Shown here: positions 2,057 to 18,225 of the stretch, piece after piece
How positions within the stretch are numbered: position 1 is the stretch's first letter
Layout of the letters: every line of letters begins with the position of its first letter
NCBI GenBank assembly: GCA_004298115.1
Contig: SCRJ01000017.1
Coordinates: 1-58,601 of the forward strand
Source of the DNA: Acidobacteriota bacterium
GTDB lineage: Bacteria; Acidobacteriota; Thermoanaerobaculia; Thermoanaerobaculales; Thermoanaerobaculaceae
Direction: 5' to 3'
DNA length: 58,601 bases
Made by a program: the position numbers and the translations under genes
Notes under the pieces: model-generated
What the model saw: only the letters and a program-made list of their open reading frames with translations
What the model was told of the DNA's origin: nothing
Databases searched by the model: none

Positions 2057-2980
2057 ATGATCCGCAGGCTGGTGGTGCTCGTGGCGGTCGTCGCGGCGGT
2101 GGCGGTGCCGGCGGCGGCCAGGGAGATGTCCAGCGCGTACGTCGTCACGGCGGTGGCCAACCTGCAGGGGGCCGGCGGCACCGACTGGCACACCGACCTC
2201 ACCCTGTACAACCCGCACAAGACCGTGCTCTACGTCAAGCTGGTCTTCCTGCCCACCGATCAGGACAACAGCGGCGGCGCGCCGACGGCGCCGCTCGTCG
2301 ACCTGCAACCGTGGGAGACGCTCAACCTCTGGGACGTCCTCGGCCCCAGCGGCTTCGACGTCCGCGGCGAGAAGGGCGCCATGCTCGTCTATGCGGACAC
2401 GGCCGCCAACAACTGTCCGAGCGCCGCCGGCGACACGACCTGCGACTTCGCGGTGTTCGCGCGCAACTACACCCTCGACCCGACCAGGGCCAGCGGCGAG
2501 TTCGGGCAGGACTTCCCCGGGGTCCCGTCGGGTCTCGGCGTCGATTCCTCGGTGATCGCGTATATGCCGCAGATCTCCGACAACGGCGACTTCAGGACGA
2601 ACGTCGGCGTCGCATCGTGGACCGCCGATTGGGTCACCGTGCGCGAGGACGTCCAGGACGTGAGCGGCAACATCATCGGCCGTTACGATCACACGATCCC
2701 CCCGAACGGGCACAGGCAGTGGCGGCTCGAGGTCGGGGACCTCACCGGCGGCACGGTGGCGGTGTACATCGCGAGCGGCCCGAGCGACGCGATGGTCTAC
2801 CCGTACGCCACCGTGGTCGACAACACCACCGGGGACGCCACCACGGTCGAGGCGCAGATCAGCACCGTCGGCCTCTCGGCGCAGGCGGCCTCGGTGCGCG
2901 CCGTCGCGCCGCGATCCGTCCCCAAGGCGCTGCCGGTGCCGACCTTCTCGCTCGACGCGCTCAGGCGCCGCGACCGCTAG
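2057..2980 (+). CDS. Secreted surface protein of the two-domain type shared with the 49430 gene
   Basis: 307 aa. GGGAGG lies before the ATG, and a signal peptide follows (basic MIRR, hydrophobic VVVLVAVVAAVAVPAAA, cut near residue 21). The mature protein looks all-beta. It has an opening segment DWHTDLTLYNP and VKLVFLP, a middle stretch with paired Cys residues, and a second half with FRTNVGVASW, RYDHTIPPNGHRQW and AVYIASGPSDAMVYPYA. The N-terminal 250 residues of the protein encoded at 49430-51700 follow the same order of segments, so the two are likely paralogues. Function is unknown; a cell-surface or extracellular beta-sandwich protein is most likely. It ends 41 nt before a separately promoted signalling operon. 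Confidence 0.7.
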   Translation: MIRRLVVLVAVVAAVAVPAAAREMSSAYVVTAVANLQGAGGTDWHTDLTLYNPHKTVLYVKLVFLPTDQDNSGGAPTAPLVDLQPWETLNLWDVLGPSGFDVRGEKGAMLVYADTAANNCPSAAGDTTCDFAVFARNYTLDPTRASGEFGQDFPGVPSGLGVDSSVIAYMPQISDNGDFRTNVGVASWTADWVTVREDVQDVSGNIIGRYDHTIPPNGHRQWRLEVGDLTGGTVAVYIASGPSDAMVYPYATVVDNTTGDATTVEAQISTVGLSAQAASVRAVAPRSVPKALPVPTFSLDALRRRDR

Positions 2981-3008
2981 CGGTTCCCGCCCACAGCGGC
3001 CGACTTGC

Positions 3009-3014
3009 TACAAT
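3009..3014 (+). promoter_or_regulatory. -10-like TACAAT of the signalling operon (leaderless)
   Basis: TACAAT ends 7 nt before the ATG at 3022 and no ribosome binding site lies between, so transcription should begin at or next to the A of the start codon. No good -35 box is seen. Confidence 0.6.
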
Positions 3015-3021
3015 CCCTCCC

Positions 3022-4173
3022 ATGTCGGCCGAACAGCGGGGCAGGCGGCTCGTCATTCTGGTCGTCGATAAGGACGCCACGCTGCGCGAGGCGATCCGAT
3101 CGGCGCTCGCAGACCAGTTTCGCGACGTCGAGGTCCGCGTGGTCGAGAGCGGCGCCGCCGCCTGGGAGGTGGTTCGCGGCGGCGGCGTCGACCTCCTGAT
3201 CAGCGGCGTCATGATCGCGGACATCGACGGTCTCCAGCTCCTCCGCATGGTGCGCGAGGACCGCCGGCTCGCCGACATGTACATCCTGTTGATGACGGGC
3301 GTGGCGTCGCCGGAGGACCTCTTCGCGGCGATGGACGAGGGCGCCGACGACTGCCTGCTGAAGCCGTTCCGCTGGAACGAGCTGATCGCACGGGTGCGCG
3401 CCGGGCTGCGGCGGGTCGCAGCCACCCGCCGTCACGCGGCCCGCGCCGACGAGCTCGAGCGCCTCAACGACCGCCACACCGAGTTCCTATCGATGGTCTC
3501 GCACGAGATCCGCACGCCTCTGTCCGCGATCCTCTCCGCCGCCAACGTCCTGATGCGGTACGGCAGCAAGCGGCCCGACTCGGTCGAGCGCTTCGCCCGG
3601 GTGATCCACCAGGAGGGCCGGCGCCTGACGCGCCTGATCAACAACCTGCTCGACCTCGCCAAGATCGAGGCCGGCCACGTGGAGTGGAGCTTCGCCCCCG
3701 CCGCCGTGGACGAGCTGGTGCGCGACGTGCAGGAGTCGTTCTCCGCGCTCGTCGGCGAGCGCAACCTCACGCTCGCGGTCGAACCCTGGCCCGAGCCGGT
3801 CGTGGTCGAGCTCGACCGCGACAAGATCACGCAGGTCTTGGTGAACCTGCTGTCCAACTCGATCAAGCACTCCCCCGACGGCGCCGTCGTGCGGCTGCGG
3901 TACCGGCCGCAGGGCCGTGGGCTCCGTCTCGAGGTCGAGGACGAGGGCGCCGGGATCCCGCCGGGGCGGGAGGAGCAGATCTTCGAGCGCTTCGAGCAGC
4001 TCGGGATGGACGACCAGCGCCGGGGCTCGGGTCTCGGACTGACGATCTCGCGGCAGATCGTCGAGACGCACGGCGGCCGCATCTGGGCCGAGCCCGGACG
4101 CACGCACGGCGCGCTGTTCGTCGTCGAGTTGCCGGGGGGCGCGGGGGGTCGGGGGCGCGATGGTTCAGTTTGA
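3022..4173 (+). CDS. Hybrid histidine kinase with a phosphoacceptor-less (pseudo) receiver domain
   Basis: 383 aa. Residues 10-130 form a CheY-like receiver: acidic pair D16/D18, Thr92 and Lys114 are in place, but the position that normally holds the phosphorylated Asp is Gly62 (DLLISGVMIADIDG), so the domain should not be phosphorylated in the usual way. After a short linker come the dimerisation/phosphoacceptor helix (FLSMVSHEIRTPLSAIL, His161) and a HATPase with N box NLLSNSIKHS, G1 DEGAGIP and G2 GSGLGL, so the kinase itself looks active. No membrane segment is present; it is cytoplasmic. First gene of a four-gene overlapping operon: its last 14 nt overlap the GTPase-kinase gene. The receiver probably acts as a protein-binding input. 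Confidence 0.88.
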   Translation: MSAEQRGRRLVILVVDKDATLREAIRSALADQFRDVEVRVVESGAAAWEVVRGGGVDLLISGVMIADIDGLQLLRMVREDRRLADMYILLMTGVASPEDLFAAMDEGADDCLLKPFRWNELIARVRAGLRRVAATRRHAARADELERLNDRHTEFLSMVSHEIRTPLSAILSAANVLMRYGSKRPDSVERFARVIHQEGRRLTRLINNLLDLAKIEAGHVEWSFAPAAVDELVRDVQESFSALVGERNLTLAVEPWPEPVVVELDRDKITQVLVNLLSNSIKHSPDGAVVRLRYRPQGRGLRLEVEDEGAGIPPGREEQIFERFEQLGMDDQRRGSGLGLTISRQIVETHGGRIWAEPGRTHGALFVVELPGGAGGRGRDGSV

Positions 4174-6346
4174 CAACCAGTACCGGCAGGTGAAGCTGAA
4201 GGTGGTGTATTACGGGCCGGCCCTCGGCGGCAAGACGACCTGCCTGCAGTACATCCATCGCGTCACCGACCCGCAGCGCCGGACCAAGCTGTACACCCTC
4301 AACACCGCGGCCGACCGCACCTTGTTCTTCGACCTGCTCGGCCTCGACCTCGGGCGCGTCCGGGGCTACCGGCTGACCTTGCAGCTCTACACCGTGCCGG
4401 GCCAGGTGCAGTACAACGCGACGCGGCGTGCGGTGCTCGGCGGCTGCGACGGCGTGATGTTCGTAGCCGACTCGCAGCGTGCCGCCGGCAAGGCCAACGA
4501 GGAGAGCCTCGCGAACCTGATCGAGAACCTGCGGGCCAACGGGCTGGACCCGAATACGGTCCCGATCGTGCTGACCTACAACAAGCGCGACCTGCCCGAC
4601 GTGCTCGCGCGGGCGGAGCTCGACCGGTCGCTGAACGCGCGCGGCCTGCCCGCATTCGAGACCGTGGCCACGTCGGGGGAGGGTGTGGTCGAGGCGTTCT
4701 CGGCGGTGACCCAGGCCACGGTGCTGGCGGTGGCGGACCGGCTCGGGATGTCGGGCCAGCCCGAGGCGCTCACGCGCCTGATGGGCAACGTGACGGCCGC
4801 GCTGCAGCCGCTGATGCGCAAGAACCCGCCGGCTGCCGTCGACGCGCCGGTCGTCATCCAGACGGCGACCCAGAGCGGCAACCTGCGCGACGACGAACTG
4901 GTGACCGAGGCCGTGCGCGCCAACGTCGCCATGACCGACCTCACCACTCGCCTCGACCAGCTCGCCGGGGATCTCGAGAGGCGCGTGGCGATGCTCCGTT
5001 CGATCAACGAGTTCGGCCGGGTGATGTCGCTGGCGCGCGAGCCCGAGGAGGTGACGACCGCGTTTCTCGACCGCCTCCTCTCGGAGCTGCGGGTCGGCTG
5101 CGGTTCGCTGCTCCTCCTCGACCACAAGGGCGATCTCGTCGAGGTCCTCCGCCGCGGCCTCGCCGCGGACCCGCTCGCGCGCCGCAACGACAAGGGCGAA
5201 TCGCCGGCCGGGGTGATCCTCGCGTCACGGCAGGCGTTCCTGGCGCGGCTGGACGAGCTCGAGCCGGCGCAACTGCTGGACGCGCCGTGGGCCGATGAGG
5301 TTCGCGGCCTGAGCCTGGTCGGGCTCCTGGCCGTGCCGCTCGTCGCCCAGGACAGGCCCCTCGGTCTCGTGACGGCCTACGCCGATCAGGCGCGGGGAGG
5401 GTTCGCGGACGACGACCTGGAACTCGCGACCGCGTTGGGCGCCAACGCGGCGACCGCCCTGGCGAACTCGCGCGCCTGGAGGTCGCTCGAGCAGCTCAAC
5501 CGTTCGCTCGAGGACGCGGTGGGGGAGCGCACGGCGAAGCTCCAGGAAGCGCTCGGCCGCGCCCAGACGCTGGCGGAGCAGCTCGAGGACCGCAACCTCG
5601 CGCTCGAGGCCGCCAACCGGCAGCTGCGCGACCTCGAACGTCTCAAGGGCGACCTGCTGAAACGCATCGCCCACGAGCTGAACACCCCGGTCACGGCGAT
5701 CCAGACCGCGGGACGGATCCTGGCGCGGTACGACGAGATGCCGCCCGAGAAAGCCGTCAAGTTCGTCGAGATCATCACCCAGGAGGCCACCCGGCTCGCC
5801 GAGCTGATCTCGTCGTCGTTGCAGGCGCTGGTGCTGGGCGTGCCGGAGGGCCGGCCGGCGCCGACCGCCGTCGAGGTCGCCGAACTCCTCCGCCGCGTCC
5901 TCGCGCCGCTCAAGGGGGACGTCGCCGCCAAGCACCTGGCGGTGCAGGTGAAGGTCGCCTCCGGCCTCGACGAGATCGTCGGCGACGGCGACCAGATCGA
6001 GGCGGCGCTGCGCGCCGTGGTCAGGAACGCCGTCGATTTCAACCGCGACGGCGGCAGCGTCGTGGTCACGGTGCGCTCGCTGCGGCGAGGCGCCGTCGCG
6101 ATGGTGGAGATGCGCGTCGAGGACACCGGAATCGGCATTCCGGCGCAGGACCTCCCGCACGTGAGCGAGGTGTTCTGGCAGGGCGGCAACGTGCTCACGG
6201 CCAAGCCGCGCGGCCTCGGCCTCGGGCTCGCGGTCGCGCGGCGCGTGGCGGAGAACCACGGCGGCGCGCTCGAGGTCGTCTCCGAGGAGGGCAAGGGCAC
6301 GGCGGTCAGCCTGCTGTTCCCGGTCGCGGGGGCCCCGGAACCATGA
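4160..6346 (+). CDS. MglA-type GTPase fused to GAF and histidine kinase domains
   Basis: 728 aa. Residues 10-200 are a Ras-like GTPase of the MglA family: P-loop GPALGGKT (19-26), switch II segment TVPGQVQY, and base-recognition motif NKRD. After a linker (200-275), residues about 280-440 look like a GAF domain (LRVGCGSLLLLDHKGDLVEV ... LLAVPLVAQDRPLGLVTAY). A coiled coil (440-500) leads into the H box IAHELNTPVTAI with His505, and a HATPase with DTGIGIP and GLGLGLAVARRVAENHGG follows. In Myxococcus, MglA is a stand-alone switch for gliding and type IV pilus polarity; a covalent fusion to a histidine kinase suggests GTP state gates kinase output. It overlaps the upstream gene by 14 nt and the downstream gene by 4 nt (ATGA). 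No MglB-like activator is seen in the window. Confidence 0.88.
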   Translation: MVQFDNQYRQVKLKVVYYGPALGGKTTCLQYIHRVTDPQRRTKLYTLNTAADRTLFFDLLGLDLGRVRGYRLTLQLYTVPGQVQYNATRRAVLGGCDGVMFVADSQRAAGKANEESLANLIENLRANGLDPNTVPIVLTYNKRDLPDVLARAELDRSLNARGLPAFETVATSGEGVVEAFSAVTQATVLAVADRLGMSGQPEALTRLMGNVTAALQPLMRKNPPAAVDAPVVIQTATQSGNLRDDELVTEAVRANVAMTDLTTRLDQLAGDLERRVAMLRSINEFGRVMSLAREPEEVTTAFLDRLLSELRVGCGSLLLLDHKGDLVEVLRRGLAADPLARRNDKGESPAGVILASRQAFLARLDELEPAQLLDAPWADEVRGLSLVGLLAVPLVAQDRPLGLVTAYADQARGGFADDDLELATALGANAATALANSRAWRSLEQLNRSLEDAVGERTAKLQEALGRAQTLAEQLEDRNLALEAANRQLRDLERLKGDLLKRIAHELNTPVTAIQTAGRILARYDEMPPEKAVKFVEIITQEATRLAELISSSLQALVLGVPEGRPAPTAVEVAELLRRVLAPLKGDVAAKHLAVQVKVASGLDEIVGDGDQIEAALRAVVRNAVDFNRDGGSVVVTVRSLRRGAVAMVEMRVEDTGIGIPAQDLPHVSEVFWQGGNVLTAKPRGLGLGLAVARRVAENHGGALEVVSEEGKGTAVSLLFPVAGAPEP

Positions 6347-7860
6347 AGCGCTGGTTCCTGCCGCGCGACGTGCAGGCGCTGCTGGACGCCGTGGCGCTCG
6401 CCGCCGGCGGCGCGGTGCTGCTCGACCCGGACGGCAGGCTGGTCGGGCAGGCGGGCGACGTCGCCGCCGCCAACCGCGCGCTGCCGGTGCGCTGCGGCGA
6501 GACGCAGGCCACCCTGTTGCTGCCGCCTCCGGCCGGGGAGGGAGTCGGCGTGGTGGCGGCGGCGGCGCTCGAGCGGATGGCGGCGGCGCGCCTCGCCATC
6601 GACGACCTCGCGTCGGCCACCCGCACGCTGTGGTGGCAGCAGAACCTCGTCTTCTCGTCGGGCGGGCTGCTCAGGCACGGTTTCGGCGATCGCGACATCA
6701 ACCGCTGGCTGCTCGACCGGCTCGCCGGGCTCCAGCTGCAAACGGTCGTCGTGTGCATGTGGGACGGCGCCATCCTCGAGGTTGCGGGCGGCGTCCTCCC
6801 CGCGGGCCTGCGGGCCGGCGACGACGTGCCGGCGTCGGCGCTCGCGGCCCAGGTACTCGCAGCCGGCGAGCCGATCGCGTTCGTGGTGCAGGACGGGAGC
6901 GGCGCGCCGGAGCTGGGCATCGCCGTGGAGCCGGGCCAGCCGTGCCTGATGGTGCCGCTGCGCAGCGCCGACAGCGTGCTCGGCCTGGTGATGCTCGCCC
7001 GGCGGCGCGGCGAGGGTGCCTTCGGGGCCGGCGAGGTCAAGCTCGTCCAGCTGCTCGCCGACCTCCTGAGCGTGGGCATCGTCAACCGTTCGCTGGTGGG
7101 GGAGGCGGAGCACACCGCGCGGCTCCTGCGAGAGATCGAGCTCGCGGCCGAGATCCAGCGGCGGCTCTTCCCGCCGCAGGTCGCGCGCTCGGGCGGGCTC
7201 GAGATCGCCGCGCACTGCCGGCCGGTGACCCAGGTCGGCGGCGACGGGTTCCTGCAGCGCCGGCTGGCCGGCGGCACGTTGCTCCTCGGCGTCGTGGACC
7301 TGACGGGCCACGGGATCGCCGTCGCCCTGGCCCTCGCGGCGCTCTACGCCCGCCTCGACGCCCTCGCCGATGCCGTCGAGACGCCGGCTCGCCTGCTGCA
7401 GCTGGTCAACGACCAGCTCACGCAGGGGGAGTTCAACTGGTACACGATGGCCACCGCGGTGATCGCCTTCGCCGACCCCGACAGCGGCCGCTTCACGGTA
7501 GCCACGGCGGCGCACCCGCGGGCGTTCGTGCGCCGGGCGGGCGGGAGGATCGACGTGCTCGAAGCCAGCGGGCTCCCGCTCGGGGTCCGCGCGGGCGAGC
7601 AGTACCCCCTGCAGGAGGGGCGCCTGGAGGCCGGCGACCTCCTCGTGCTCCACTCCGACGGAATCAGCGAGGCGACCGGCCACGGTTCGGATCTCTTCGG
7701 CGTCGACGGCCTGCACCGCGCGCTCGAACCGGGGTTCGCCTCGGCGTCGGCGGCGCTCGCGGCGGTGCTCGACAGCGTGGCGGCGTTCACCGGCGGCGCG
7801 CCGGCGATCGACGACCAGACCATCATGATCGTGCGCAAGGCGGAGGCCGCAGGTGAGTAA
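6343..7860 (+). CDS. GAF-like domain plus SpoIIE-type PP2C serine phosphatase
   Basis: 505 aa, start overlapping the previous stop (ATGA). The first 250 residues look like two sensory modules, the second GAF-like (CLMVPLRSADSVLGLVMLARR near 205-225). A linker helix (LLREIELAAEIQRRLFPP) typical of RsbU-type proteins leads into a SpoIIE/PP2C phosphatase: VGGDGF, VVDLTGHG, LVLHSDGISEA and DDQT supply the metal-binding aspartates. The residue following the first motif is less canonical than the usual GGDYYD. Such phosphatases dephosphorylate anti-anti-sigma or other serine-phosphoproteins; no STAS or anti-sigma partner is in the window, so the substrate is unknown. Probably takes input from the two kinases encoded upstream. 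Confidence 0.85.
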   Translation: MKRWFLPRDVQALLDAVALAAGGAVLLDPDGRLVGQAGDVAAANRALPVRCGETQATLLLPPPAGEGVGVVAAAALERMAAARLAIDDLASATRTLWWQQNLVFSSGGLLRHGFGDRDINRWLLDRLAGLQLQTVVVCMWDGAILEVAGGVLPAGLRAGDDVPASALAAQVLAAGEPIAFVVQDGSGAPELGIAVEPGQPCLMVPLRSADSVLGLVMLARRRGEGAFGAGEVKLVQLLADLLSVGIVNRSLVGEAEHTARLLREIELAAEIQRRLFPPQVARSGGLEIAAHCRPVTQVGGDGFLQRRLAGGTLLLGVVDLTGHGIAVALALAALYARLDALADAVETPARLLQLVNDQLTQGEFNWYTMATAVIAFADPDSGRFTVATAAHPRAFVRRAGGRIDVLEASGLPLGVRAGEQYPLQEGRLEAGDLLVLHSDGISEATGHGSDLFGVDGLHRALEPGFASASAALAAVLDSVAAFTGGAPAIDDQTIMIVRKAEAAGE

Positions 7861-8221
7861 CGCGCTCATCTTACTCGTGGACGACGAGCCCAACATCCGG
7901 GAAACCGTCTCGTTCATCCTCGAGATGGAAGGGTTCCCGGTCGCAACCGCCGAGGACGGCGAGGAGGGGCTCGAGAAGATCCGCGCCCTGCGGCCGGCGG
8001 TGGTCCTCCTCGACGCCATGATGCCGAGGCGGGACGGTTTCGACGTGTGCCGGACGGTGAAGGCCGATCCCGAGCTCGCCGCGGTGAAGATCGTGATGCT
8101 GACGGCGCTCGGGCAGAAGGCCGACCAGGAGAAGGGCCGCGCCGCCGGAGCGGACTTCTACGTCACCAAACCGTTCGACGAGGAGGAGCTGCTCGCCCTC
8201 CTGCGCCGCCTCACCGGCTGA
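7853..8221 (+). CDS. Single-domain CheY-like response regulator
   Basis: 122 aa from a GTG at 7853, overlapping the phosphatase gene by 8 nt. A complete receiver: acidic pair in LLVDDEPN, phosphoacceptor Asp in VVLLDAMMPRRDG, Thr in IVMLTALG and Lys in YVTKPFD. There is no output domain, so it should act by protein-protein contact or as a phosphotransfer intermediate. As last gene of the operon it is the obvious phosphate acceptor for the two kinases encoded upstream, one of which has a dead receiver. Confidence 0.9.
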   Translation: MSNALILLVDDEPNIRETVSFILEMEGFPVATAEDGEEGLEKIRALRPAVVLLDAMMPRRDGFDVCRTVKADPELAAVKIVMLTALGQKADQEKGRAAGADFYVTKPFDEEELLALLRRLTG

Positions 8222-8304
8222 TCCGCGTCCGGCGGTCGCACCCCGTTGGCACCCCCCGTGTGTCGGCCGATGCCCGCAGCGGCCGGCGAGCGCGTCTCCA
8301 GGGC

Positions 8305-8310
8305 TACACT
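8305..8310 (+). promoter_or_regulatory. -10-like TACACT of the ATP-grasp gene (leaderless)
   Basis: TACACT ends 7 nt before the ATG at 8318, with no ribosome binding site between. It fits the leaderless pattern seen across the window. A TGGCACC upstream (8255-8261) is not followed by a TTGC at sigma-54 spacing. Confidence 0.55.
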
Positions 8311-8317
8311 ACCCGGC

Positions 8318-9199
8318 ATGCCGACCGTGGCGGTGCTGACCGCGAAGCCCGACCTGCCCGTGCACCGTGAACTTCAGGCGGCGGGGGAGGCGTGCGGGGT
8401 ACAGGTCGAGATCCTCGACGCCCTCGCGGTCGCGGCGCTGGACGCGCCGCCGCGTCTCTGGCGCGCCGGCCGTCCCGTCGCCGCGGCCGGCATCGGGGCG
8501 GTGCTGCCCCGGGTCGGGAACTGGCGGCCGGATGCCGTGCTCGCCGTGCTCGCCGTGTTGCGGGCGTCGGGCGTGGCCGCGCTCAACGAGCCCGCGGCGA
8601 TCCGGACCGGCCGCGACCACTGGCGCACCGCGTGCGCTCTGGCGGCCGCCGGGGTGCCGCACCCGGCGACCGTCGCCGGCTCCGAGCCCGAGGTGCTCGC
8701 GGCCGCGGCCGCGGCCGCGTTCGGGTTTCCAGTCGTGGTCAAGCAACGCAGCTCCCGGCGGGGGATCGGGGTGATCCGCTGTGCGAGCGCGGCCGAGCTG
8801 GAGGCCGTGCTCGACTCGCTCTGGCGGGTCGGCGACGAGGTGGTCGTGCAGCGCTTCTGCCCGCCGGGCGGGGTGAGCCGGCGCGTGCTCGTGCTCGACG
8901 GCGAGGTGCTCGGTGCGGCCGAGCACCGCGCGCCGGAGGGGGAGTTCCGCGCCAACGCCGCGCGCGGCGCGGCGGTGCGGGGAGTCGCGGCGGACGGCGA
9001 GACGACCGGGCTGGCGGTGTGCGCCGCGCGGGCGACCGGCCTCGCGTTCGCCGGCGTGGACCTGATCCCGGACGGCGGTCGCTGGGTGGTGGGCGAGGTC
9101 AACCCTTCGCCGGGATGGACGCACTTCGCCGCCGCGACCGGGGCGCCGGTGGCGGCCCGCGTGGTCGCGGCGCTCGCGAGGCGGAGCGGGGACCGGTGA
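8318..9199 (+). CDS. ATP-grasp ligase of the RimK-like type
   Basis: 293 aa. The N-terminal third is a pre-ATP-grasp alpha/beta domain (VLPRVGNWRPDAV). ATP-grasp features follow: FPVVVKQRSSRRGIGV (ATP-binding Lys and glycine-rich loop, about residues 143-158), VVVQRFCPPGG, and the metal-binding end FAGVDLIPDGGRWVVGEVNPSPGW with Asp, Glu and Asn. RimK-family enzymes join an amino acid or amine to a carboxylate using ATP; the substrate here cannot be read from sequence. The stop overlaps the GTG of the next gene (GTGA), so an operon of two is likely. Confidence 0.8.
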   Translation: MPTVAVLTAKPDLPVHRELQAAGEACGVQVEILDALAVAALDAPPRLWRAGRPVAAAGIGAVLPRVGNWRPDAVLAVLAVLRASGVAALNEPAAIRTGRDHWRTACALAAAGVPHPATVAGSEPEVLAAAAAAAFGFPVVVKQRSSRRGIGVIRCASAAELEAVLDSLWRVGDEVVVQRFCPPGGVSRRVLVLDGEVLGAAEHRAPEGEFRANAARGAAVRGVAADGETTGLAVCAARATGLAFAGVDLIPDGGRWVVGEVNPSPGWTHFAAATGAPVAARVVAALARRSGDR

Positions 9200-13670: not shown

Positions 13671-13716
13671 CGCGAGCCGGCGCGAGAACCGCGCCGGCGC
13701 GGTTGTGGAGGTCGTG

Positions 13717-18225
<4,509 letters not shown>

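Follow-up and report, generated by a model that had tools for sequence, protein, structure and literature searches.

The window analyzed herein, a 58,601-nucleotide stretch of an Acidobacteriota genome, carries a compact operon of 4 overlapping genes (A to D), which is a genuine, conserved, and apparently undescribed gene set joining 3 known kinds of signaling. Gene B encodes an MglA-type GTPase fused to a histidine kinase (HK), gene C a SpoIIE-type PP2C phosphatase, and gene D a stand-alone receiver. The genes, their domains and intact residues, the synteny, the overlaps, and the co-occurrence of the phospho-acceptor His of B with a neighboring receiver gene are established by sequence comparison. 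We propose, giving the idea an even chance, that B, C, and D constitute a signaling module in which B would act on D, D on C, and C on a STAS partner switch, with the MglA GTPase built into the kinase.

Gene layout and domain architecture

The 4 genes are all on the + strand and overlap by 14, 4, and 8 nt (Table 1), exactly as described in the first-pass annotation, the domain assignments of which agree with Pfam and with a search of PDB sequences. Orthologues in congeners are approximately 60% to 93% identical and preserve the same overlaps, indicating that the genes are real. Given the overlaps, the operon is likely expressed as a single transcript; the shared promoter claimed previously could not be confirmed, because a scan of positions 2600–8700, by consensus only, revealed neither a sigma-70-like promoter nor a terminator-like site. 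Of the flanking genes, the one for the secreted protein (AlphaFold pLDDT 84) directly precedes A or B in nearly all Thermoanaerobaculales loci with enough contig, and the RimK gene lies downstream of B or D in loci of the window's family (f1) and of its sister family (f2).

Table 1. Features of the operon and its immediate surroundings, in window positions.
Feature	Position	Strand	Description
Upstream neighbor	2057..2980	+	Secreted beta-rich protein, without Pfam family; conserved context, not core
Gene A	3022..4173	+	Receiver 3055-3399, HisKA 3478-3675, HATPase_c 3814-4134 (Pfam)
A/B overlap	4160..4173	+	14 nt in 12/15 loci, 17 nt in 3/15
Gene B	4160..6346	+	MglA-type GTPase 4160-4744, linker/signaling helix, GAF 5036-5461, HisKA 5645-5821, HATPase_c 5981-6325
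Gene B phospho-acceptor His codon	5672-5674	+	Within HisKA
B/C overlap	6343..6346	+	4 nt in 6/6 C-bearing loci
Gene C	6343..7860	+	GAF 6733-7080, SpoIIE/PP2C phosphatase 7270-7836 (Pfam)
C/D overlap	7853..7860	+	8 nt in 6/6 loci of the window's genus; 1-8 nt in 9/9 distant loci
Gene D	7853..8221	+	Single-domain receiver; canonical residues all present (Pfam, alignments)
Downstream neighbor	8309..9199	+	RimK-family ATP-grasp ligase (TIGR00768); conserved context, not core

Residues 1–195 of B belong to the MglA family (phmmer against PDB sequences, 5.6e-52 to Myxococcus xanthus MglA), and Pfam recognizes Ras/Arf-like, GAF, HisKA, and HATPase domains in the protein. In the AlphaFold model of B (mean pLDDT 78), a helical linker connects MglA to GAF, and a long helix leads on to HisKA and the ATPase; the pTM of 0.38 renders the arrangement of the domains unreliable. 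Foldseek searches with this model retrieved MglA structures (TMt 0.84–0.88, 42%–48% identity) as well as HK853-type kinases, with DivL among the top matches. The GTPase motifs are present, namely the P-loop GKTT, TVPGQ (T78, Q82), the intrinsic R53, and NKRD, with a single NKQD variant in the f2 locus L060. The catalytic residues R53 and Q82 are invariant in all 68 B proteins, and the N, G1, and G2 boxes for ATP binding are mostly retained among them. Together, B and D display the orthodox two-component residue set (HisKA His and N/G1/G2 boxes in the kinase; DD, D, T, and K in the receiver), and the canonical residues of D were confirmed in alignments that include its distant counterparts. The SpoIIE domain of C (Pfam, 2.1e-33) contains the metal-binding acidic residues, and the motifs GGD, DLTGHG, SDG, and DDxT are kept in 6/6 congeners and in the distant loci described below. 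The operon contains no roadblock (MglB-like) gene; elsewhere, the genome encodes 2, one of which adjoins, on contig C112, the gene for a separate MglA paralogue, and 3 further MglA-like GTPases.

Distribution within Thermoanaerobaculales

By its named relatives, the window belongs to the order Thermoanaerobaculales of the class Thermoanaerobaculia. Full-length B orthologues are found throughout f1 and in most of f2, and none were found in the remaining families of the class. Within Thermoanaerobaculales, the exact A-B-C-D set occurs in 6 species of a single genus, that of the window, so that the refuting condition set in the first-pass annotation, no co-occurrence in any relative, does not hold. 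The f1 gene order is secreted protein–A–B–[C]–D–RimK, with C restricted to the 6 species of the window's genus and D directly following B in loci without C. In f2, B is likewise flanked by the genes for the secreted protein and RimK, with A, C, and D missing and a convergent DUF4388 gene being common; in locus L060, a receiver gene follows B, and a C-like gene lies on the other side of B. Because C is missing from most Thermoanaerobaculales loci, D would need another or an additional target there.

Gene A is present only in f1 and, on this distribution, is a family-level addition. The phospho-accepting Asp of its receiver is replaced by Gly in the window (...LLISGVMI...), whereas the receiver is intact in orthologues from several sister species (...LLLTDVVMPG...); the residue is lost in the window's subclade plus loci L044 and L048 and intact in others. 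The term pseudo-receiver, applied to A in the first-pass annotation, thus describes the window genome correctly, but not a design feature of the protein. Judged from the alignments, the pseudo-receiver arose by recent decay specific to this lineage; an ancestral origin is ruled out by the Asp kept in the sister species.

The C-D-B module across Acidobacteriota

To define the distribution of B beyond Thermoanaerobaculales, a profile of B was run over 396 Acidobacteriota genomes, the scope of the survey, and yielded matches at a cutoff of 1e-110 in 90 of them, some spanning the N-terminal half only. Full-length proteins combining MglA, GAF or another domain, and a kinase are present in many further families of the phylum. 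Domain scans revealed consecutive PP2C, receiver, and B genes on the same strand in 9 genomes from 4 families, f41, f67, f76, and f86 (loci L182, L183 [Ca. Polarisedimenticola svalbardensis], L187, L193, L199, L200, L201, L204, and L207). The C/D overlap is kept in all 9 triads (4 nt in 6, 8 nt in 2, and 1 nt in 1). When the window C was used as a query against the whole triad genomes, the triad PP2C was the top match in 8 of 9 and ranked third in the remaining one (G280); with D as the query, the triad receiver was the best of 51–91 receivers in 7 genomes and the second best in 2. The window C matches triad PP2Cs down to 1.1e-38 versus 1.3e-32 for its closest paralogue among the 12 SpoIIE matches in its own genome, and it is closer to most of the triad PP2Cs than to these paralogues, which favors an old C-D pair. 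Other families depart from the triad: f20 has receiver–B pairs with PP2C missing, f23 has a receiver–receiver–B–GAF kinase arrangement, and Geothrix and its kin encode MglA-PAS-kinase-receiver as a single chain.

On the evidence of gene order and similarity, the conserved ancestral unit is C-D-B, an old Acidobacteriota module, and the order B-C-D in the window is therefore a rearrangement. The 4-gene set, regarded as a functional unit in the first-pass annotation, does recur in relatives, but its conserved core is C-D-B, with A confined to f1 and C often lost. The same restriction of A and the patchy occurrence of C rule out all 4 genes as the ancestral unit. A late insertion of C in the window's genus is likewise ruled out, since C matches the triad PP2Cs over its own paralogues and L060 keeps a C-like gene.

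Kinase, receiver, and partner switching

The phospho-acceptor His of B (residue 505 in the window) is kept in all 37 B proteins that have a neighboring receiver gene, whereas it is lost in 23 of the 31 that do not and kept in the other 8. Fisher's exact test on these 68 proteins gives 1e-11, a value that overstates the significance of the association because the rows are related by descent. A tree-aware test found approximately 4 independent pairs in the same direction and none in the opposite one (p at least 0.125), the informative pairs being too few for this sign test to reach 0.05 and the underlying quick tree carrying a long-branch warning. The retention of the His wherever a receiver gene adjoins B favors phosphotransfer from B to D, for which the case is good but not conclusive. 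In many B proteins of f2, f33, and f78, the phospho-His is replaced and the ATPase domain is retained. As the ATP-binding boxes persist in such proteins, B probably keeps a job without phosphotransfer; a role of this kind, requiring both GTP and ATP binding, has similarly good but inconclusive backing.

The neighborhoods of the distant triads point to the output. A STAS gene with a DS(A/T)G motif is located behind the triad in 7 of 9 loci and a gene for an RsbW-like ATPase (HATPase_c_2) in 5 of 9, whereas neither is present in the window operon. Most distant triads are also followed by a PAS-HisKA protein that lacks an ATPase domain and preceded by a divergent pair of ECF sigma factor and zinc-finger anti-sigma factor. 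The standard set for a partner switch consists of a SpoIIE PP2C with a neighboring STAS protein and RsbW-like kinase. A cascade leading from an HK through a receiver and a PP2C to a STAS protein has precedents in RsfS-RsfR and RsbK-RsbY (PMC10950880), which, in combination with the STAS and RsbW-like genes of the triads, support our proposal. The output by protein contact suggested in the first-pass annotation is compatible with these loci, which indicate a specific contact, that of the PP2C with a STAS protein. Elsewhere in the window genome there are 7 STAS matches, the best of which scores 1.7e-10, with no clear orthologue. One of the 7, on contig C163 (L254), adjoins genes for an RsbW-like ATPase and a receiver and represents a candidate only.

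In the proposed mechanism, B would be a cytoplasmic HK with its built-in MglA-type GTPase and GAF domain as the input. The long signaling helices would transmit to the HisKA/ATPase core both the signal of the GAF ligand and the nucleotide state of the GTPase. We infer the subsequent phosphotransfer and contact steps from sequence: B would autophosphorylate at His505 and hand the phosphoryl group on to the stand-alone receiver D, which, translationally coupled with C, may switch the phosphatase either on or off by contact. C would then dephosphorylate a partner phosphorylated on Ser/Thr, the most likely candidate being a STAS protein that resembles anti-sigma-factor antagonists and is held by an RsbW-like kinase. 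Because both partners are encoded beside the module in other classes and not in the window operon, in the window genome they would operate from outside the operon. A, a second kinase specific to the family, would probably feed D or modulate B. Several observations count against the chain from B to STAS: the window operon lacks STAS and RsbW-like genes, and the genome has no clear STAS orthologue; C is missing from most Thermoanaerobaculales loci; the association of the His with the receiver is not significant in the tree-aware test; 8 B proteins keep the His without an adjoining receiver; L060 has, next to B, a receiver that is not orthologous to D; and A could serve D.

Alternative readings

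The GTPase could instead be the output, with A, D, and the HK half of B setting the GTP/GDP state of MglA, which would then bind effectors, as proposed for the Cvn conservons. No other part of B is nearly as well conserved as the GTPase domain, the ATP-binding boxes outlast the phospho-His, and f2 loci pair B with the convergent gene for DUF4388, which we take to be a PATAN-like family. PATAN genes are reported near MglA/MglB in a survey of these GTPases (PMC4316618). However, this arrangement would account neither for the retention of PP2C and receiver genes beside B nor for the persistence of the His exactly where there is a receiver, and we consider it unlikely, if not strongly so.

Distinctly unlikely, in our assessment, is that A is the true kinase for D and that B is a GTP- and ATP-sensing regulator of A or D that transfers no phosphate. 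The HisKA of A is fully canonical, with the His intact in 15/15 orthologues, and A vanishes along with D and the phospho-His of B in L049. Yet A is absent from every distant C-D-B and D-B locus, and the His of B is still kept there; these loci often hold another HisKA protein, though one lacking the ATPase domain.

Control of type IV pili or of polarity, suggested in the first-pass annotation on the basis of proximity, is unsupported by synteny. At a distance of 2.3 kb downstream of the operon, beyond the RimK and a methyltransferase gene, there is a minor pilin/PilY1 cluster, which follows the operon in the window and in L035, L038–L040, L043, and L044, that is, in 3 genera of one family, but it was not found in other f1 members, in f2, or beside the distant modules examined. 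Beyond synteny, the backing comes from analogy: MglA controls type IV pili in Myxococcus (PMC7519303), and the catalytic residues of MglA, R53 and Q82, are also present in the GTPase domain of B. Such control is thus possible, albeit improbable. Chance clustering of signaling genes is scarcely credible, since, abundant as kinases, receivers, and SpoIIE phosphatases are in these genomes, the synteny, overlaps, order, and best-match identity of C and D hold across classes and largely refute it.

Relation to known systems and significance

Work on prokaryotic MglA GTPases has treated them as single-domain switches whose partners are separate. The MglA of the Myxococcus MglA/MglB/RomR/Frz polarity module shares the R53/Q82 chemistry and the link to receivers with the window system but is a single-domain protein, which works with MglB and RomR and is without a fused kinase or PP2C (PMC3441718). 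The closest parallels to the proposed cascade are RsfS-RsfR of Mycobacterium smegmatis and RsbK-RsbY of Bacillus cereus, in which a receiver phosphorylated by an HK controls a SpoIIE-type PP2C whose target is a STAS protein; RsbK even has a GAF domain, as does B (PMC10950880). In RsfR and RsbY, however, receiver and PP2C form one protein, whereas in the window they are encoded by separate overlapping genes, and kinases of the RsfS/RsbK type have CHASE3/GAF input without the GTPase carried by B (PMC10950880). Actinobacterial conservons (AGPS, CvnA-D) similarly combine an MglA-family GTPase and an HK in a conserved operon with no DNA-binding regulator, but they have separate kinase (cvnA) and GTPase (cvnD) genes, an MglB roadblock gene (cvnB), and cvnC, with neither receiver nor PP2C (PMC13343842, PMC4316618). 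The window operon, with its GTPase–kinase fusion and no roadblock match, falls outside that definition. DivL-type pseudo-HKs retain the ATPase with the phospho-His replaced, resembling the His-less B proteins of f2, f33, and f78, but not the window B, and they lack the GTPase of the B family.

The survey by Wuichet and Søgaard-Andersen covers single-domain prokaryotic Ras-like GTPases and their two-component links, and its passages on HKs and domain architecture do not mention a kinase fusion (PMC4316618). In the open-access literature, we found no description of an MglA–kinase fusion or of this gene set, consistent with the first-pass annotation, which knew of no such system.

The conservation of a GTPase–HK fusion across Acidobacteriota, together with its receiver and phosphatase, bears on a long-standing question, the crosstalk between Ras-like GTPases and two-component systems, and makes it testable with a few purified proteins. 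Relatives of B with and without the phospho-His provide a natural mutant series for the role of the GTPase and ATPase without phosphotransfer, and Geothrix, with its single-chain MglA-kinase-receiver, includes named isolates, such as G. fermentans DSM 14018 and G. limicola. Tentatively, and somewhat short of an even chance, we envisage a phylum-wide system in which an MglA GTPase within an HK would gate a PP2C/STAS switch via a stand-alone receiver, the His-less proteins of several lineages acting as GTP/ATP-reading pseudokinases. If this is true, G-protein, two-component, and partner-switching signaling would be joined within one operon.

Surroundings and architecture of the GTPase-kinase operon

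Locus comparison revealed that the secreted protein keeps its position directly 5' of the operon throughout the order Thermoanaerobaculales. The protein had zero matches in Pfam and NCBIfam, its AlphaFold model has a pLDDT of 84, and the PDB yielded nothing convincing, with mostly weak, Ig-like matches. In the PilY1-like ORF, Thr-Pro repeats run on at great length, from roughly residue 110 to 340, and this tract accounts for spurious long ORFs on the opposite strand.

Features in the window and at related Acidobacteriota loci
Feature	Locus	Position	Strand	Context
Secreted beta-rich protein	window	2057-2980	+	directly 5' of operon
PilY1-like ORF	window	13705-18225	+	
DUF4388 gene	L056	3232-4617	-	sister family; convergent with His-less B
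DUF4388 gene	L062	5078-6454	-	sister family; convergent with His-less B
Shortened B orthologue, 534 aa	L065 (G027)	C231:2392-3996		
PAS-HisKA protein	L183	10536-11483		adjoins GTPase-kinase
PAS-HisKA protein	L187			adjoins GTPase-kinase
PAS-HisKA protein	L193	4175-5119		adjoins GTPase-kinase
PAS-HisKA protein	L199	10340-11257		adjoins GTPase-kinase
PAS-HisKA protein	L204	6539-7504		adjoins GTPase-kinase

The architecture of B, the GTPase-kinase, varies: the shortened orthologue lacks GAF and most of HisKA, with MglA fused to HATPase, and MglA-PAS-HATPase-receiver forms one chain of ~800 aa at L106, L116, and other Geothrix/Holophagaceae loci.

Candidate partners in trans

The window's own genome encodes a STAS protein (L254, contig C163 near 8948) that has an RsbW-like ATPase close by, as well as a receiver. 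This STAS protein is a candidate partner, acting in trans, of the PP2C phosphatase gene C. The PAS-HisKA proteins beside distant GTPase-kinases all have the His and lack the ATPase domain, so that their phosphorylation could be possible in trans only; B is perhaps a kinase acting in trans on such neighbors.
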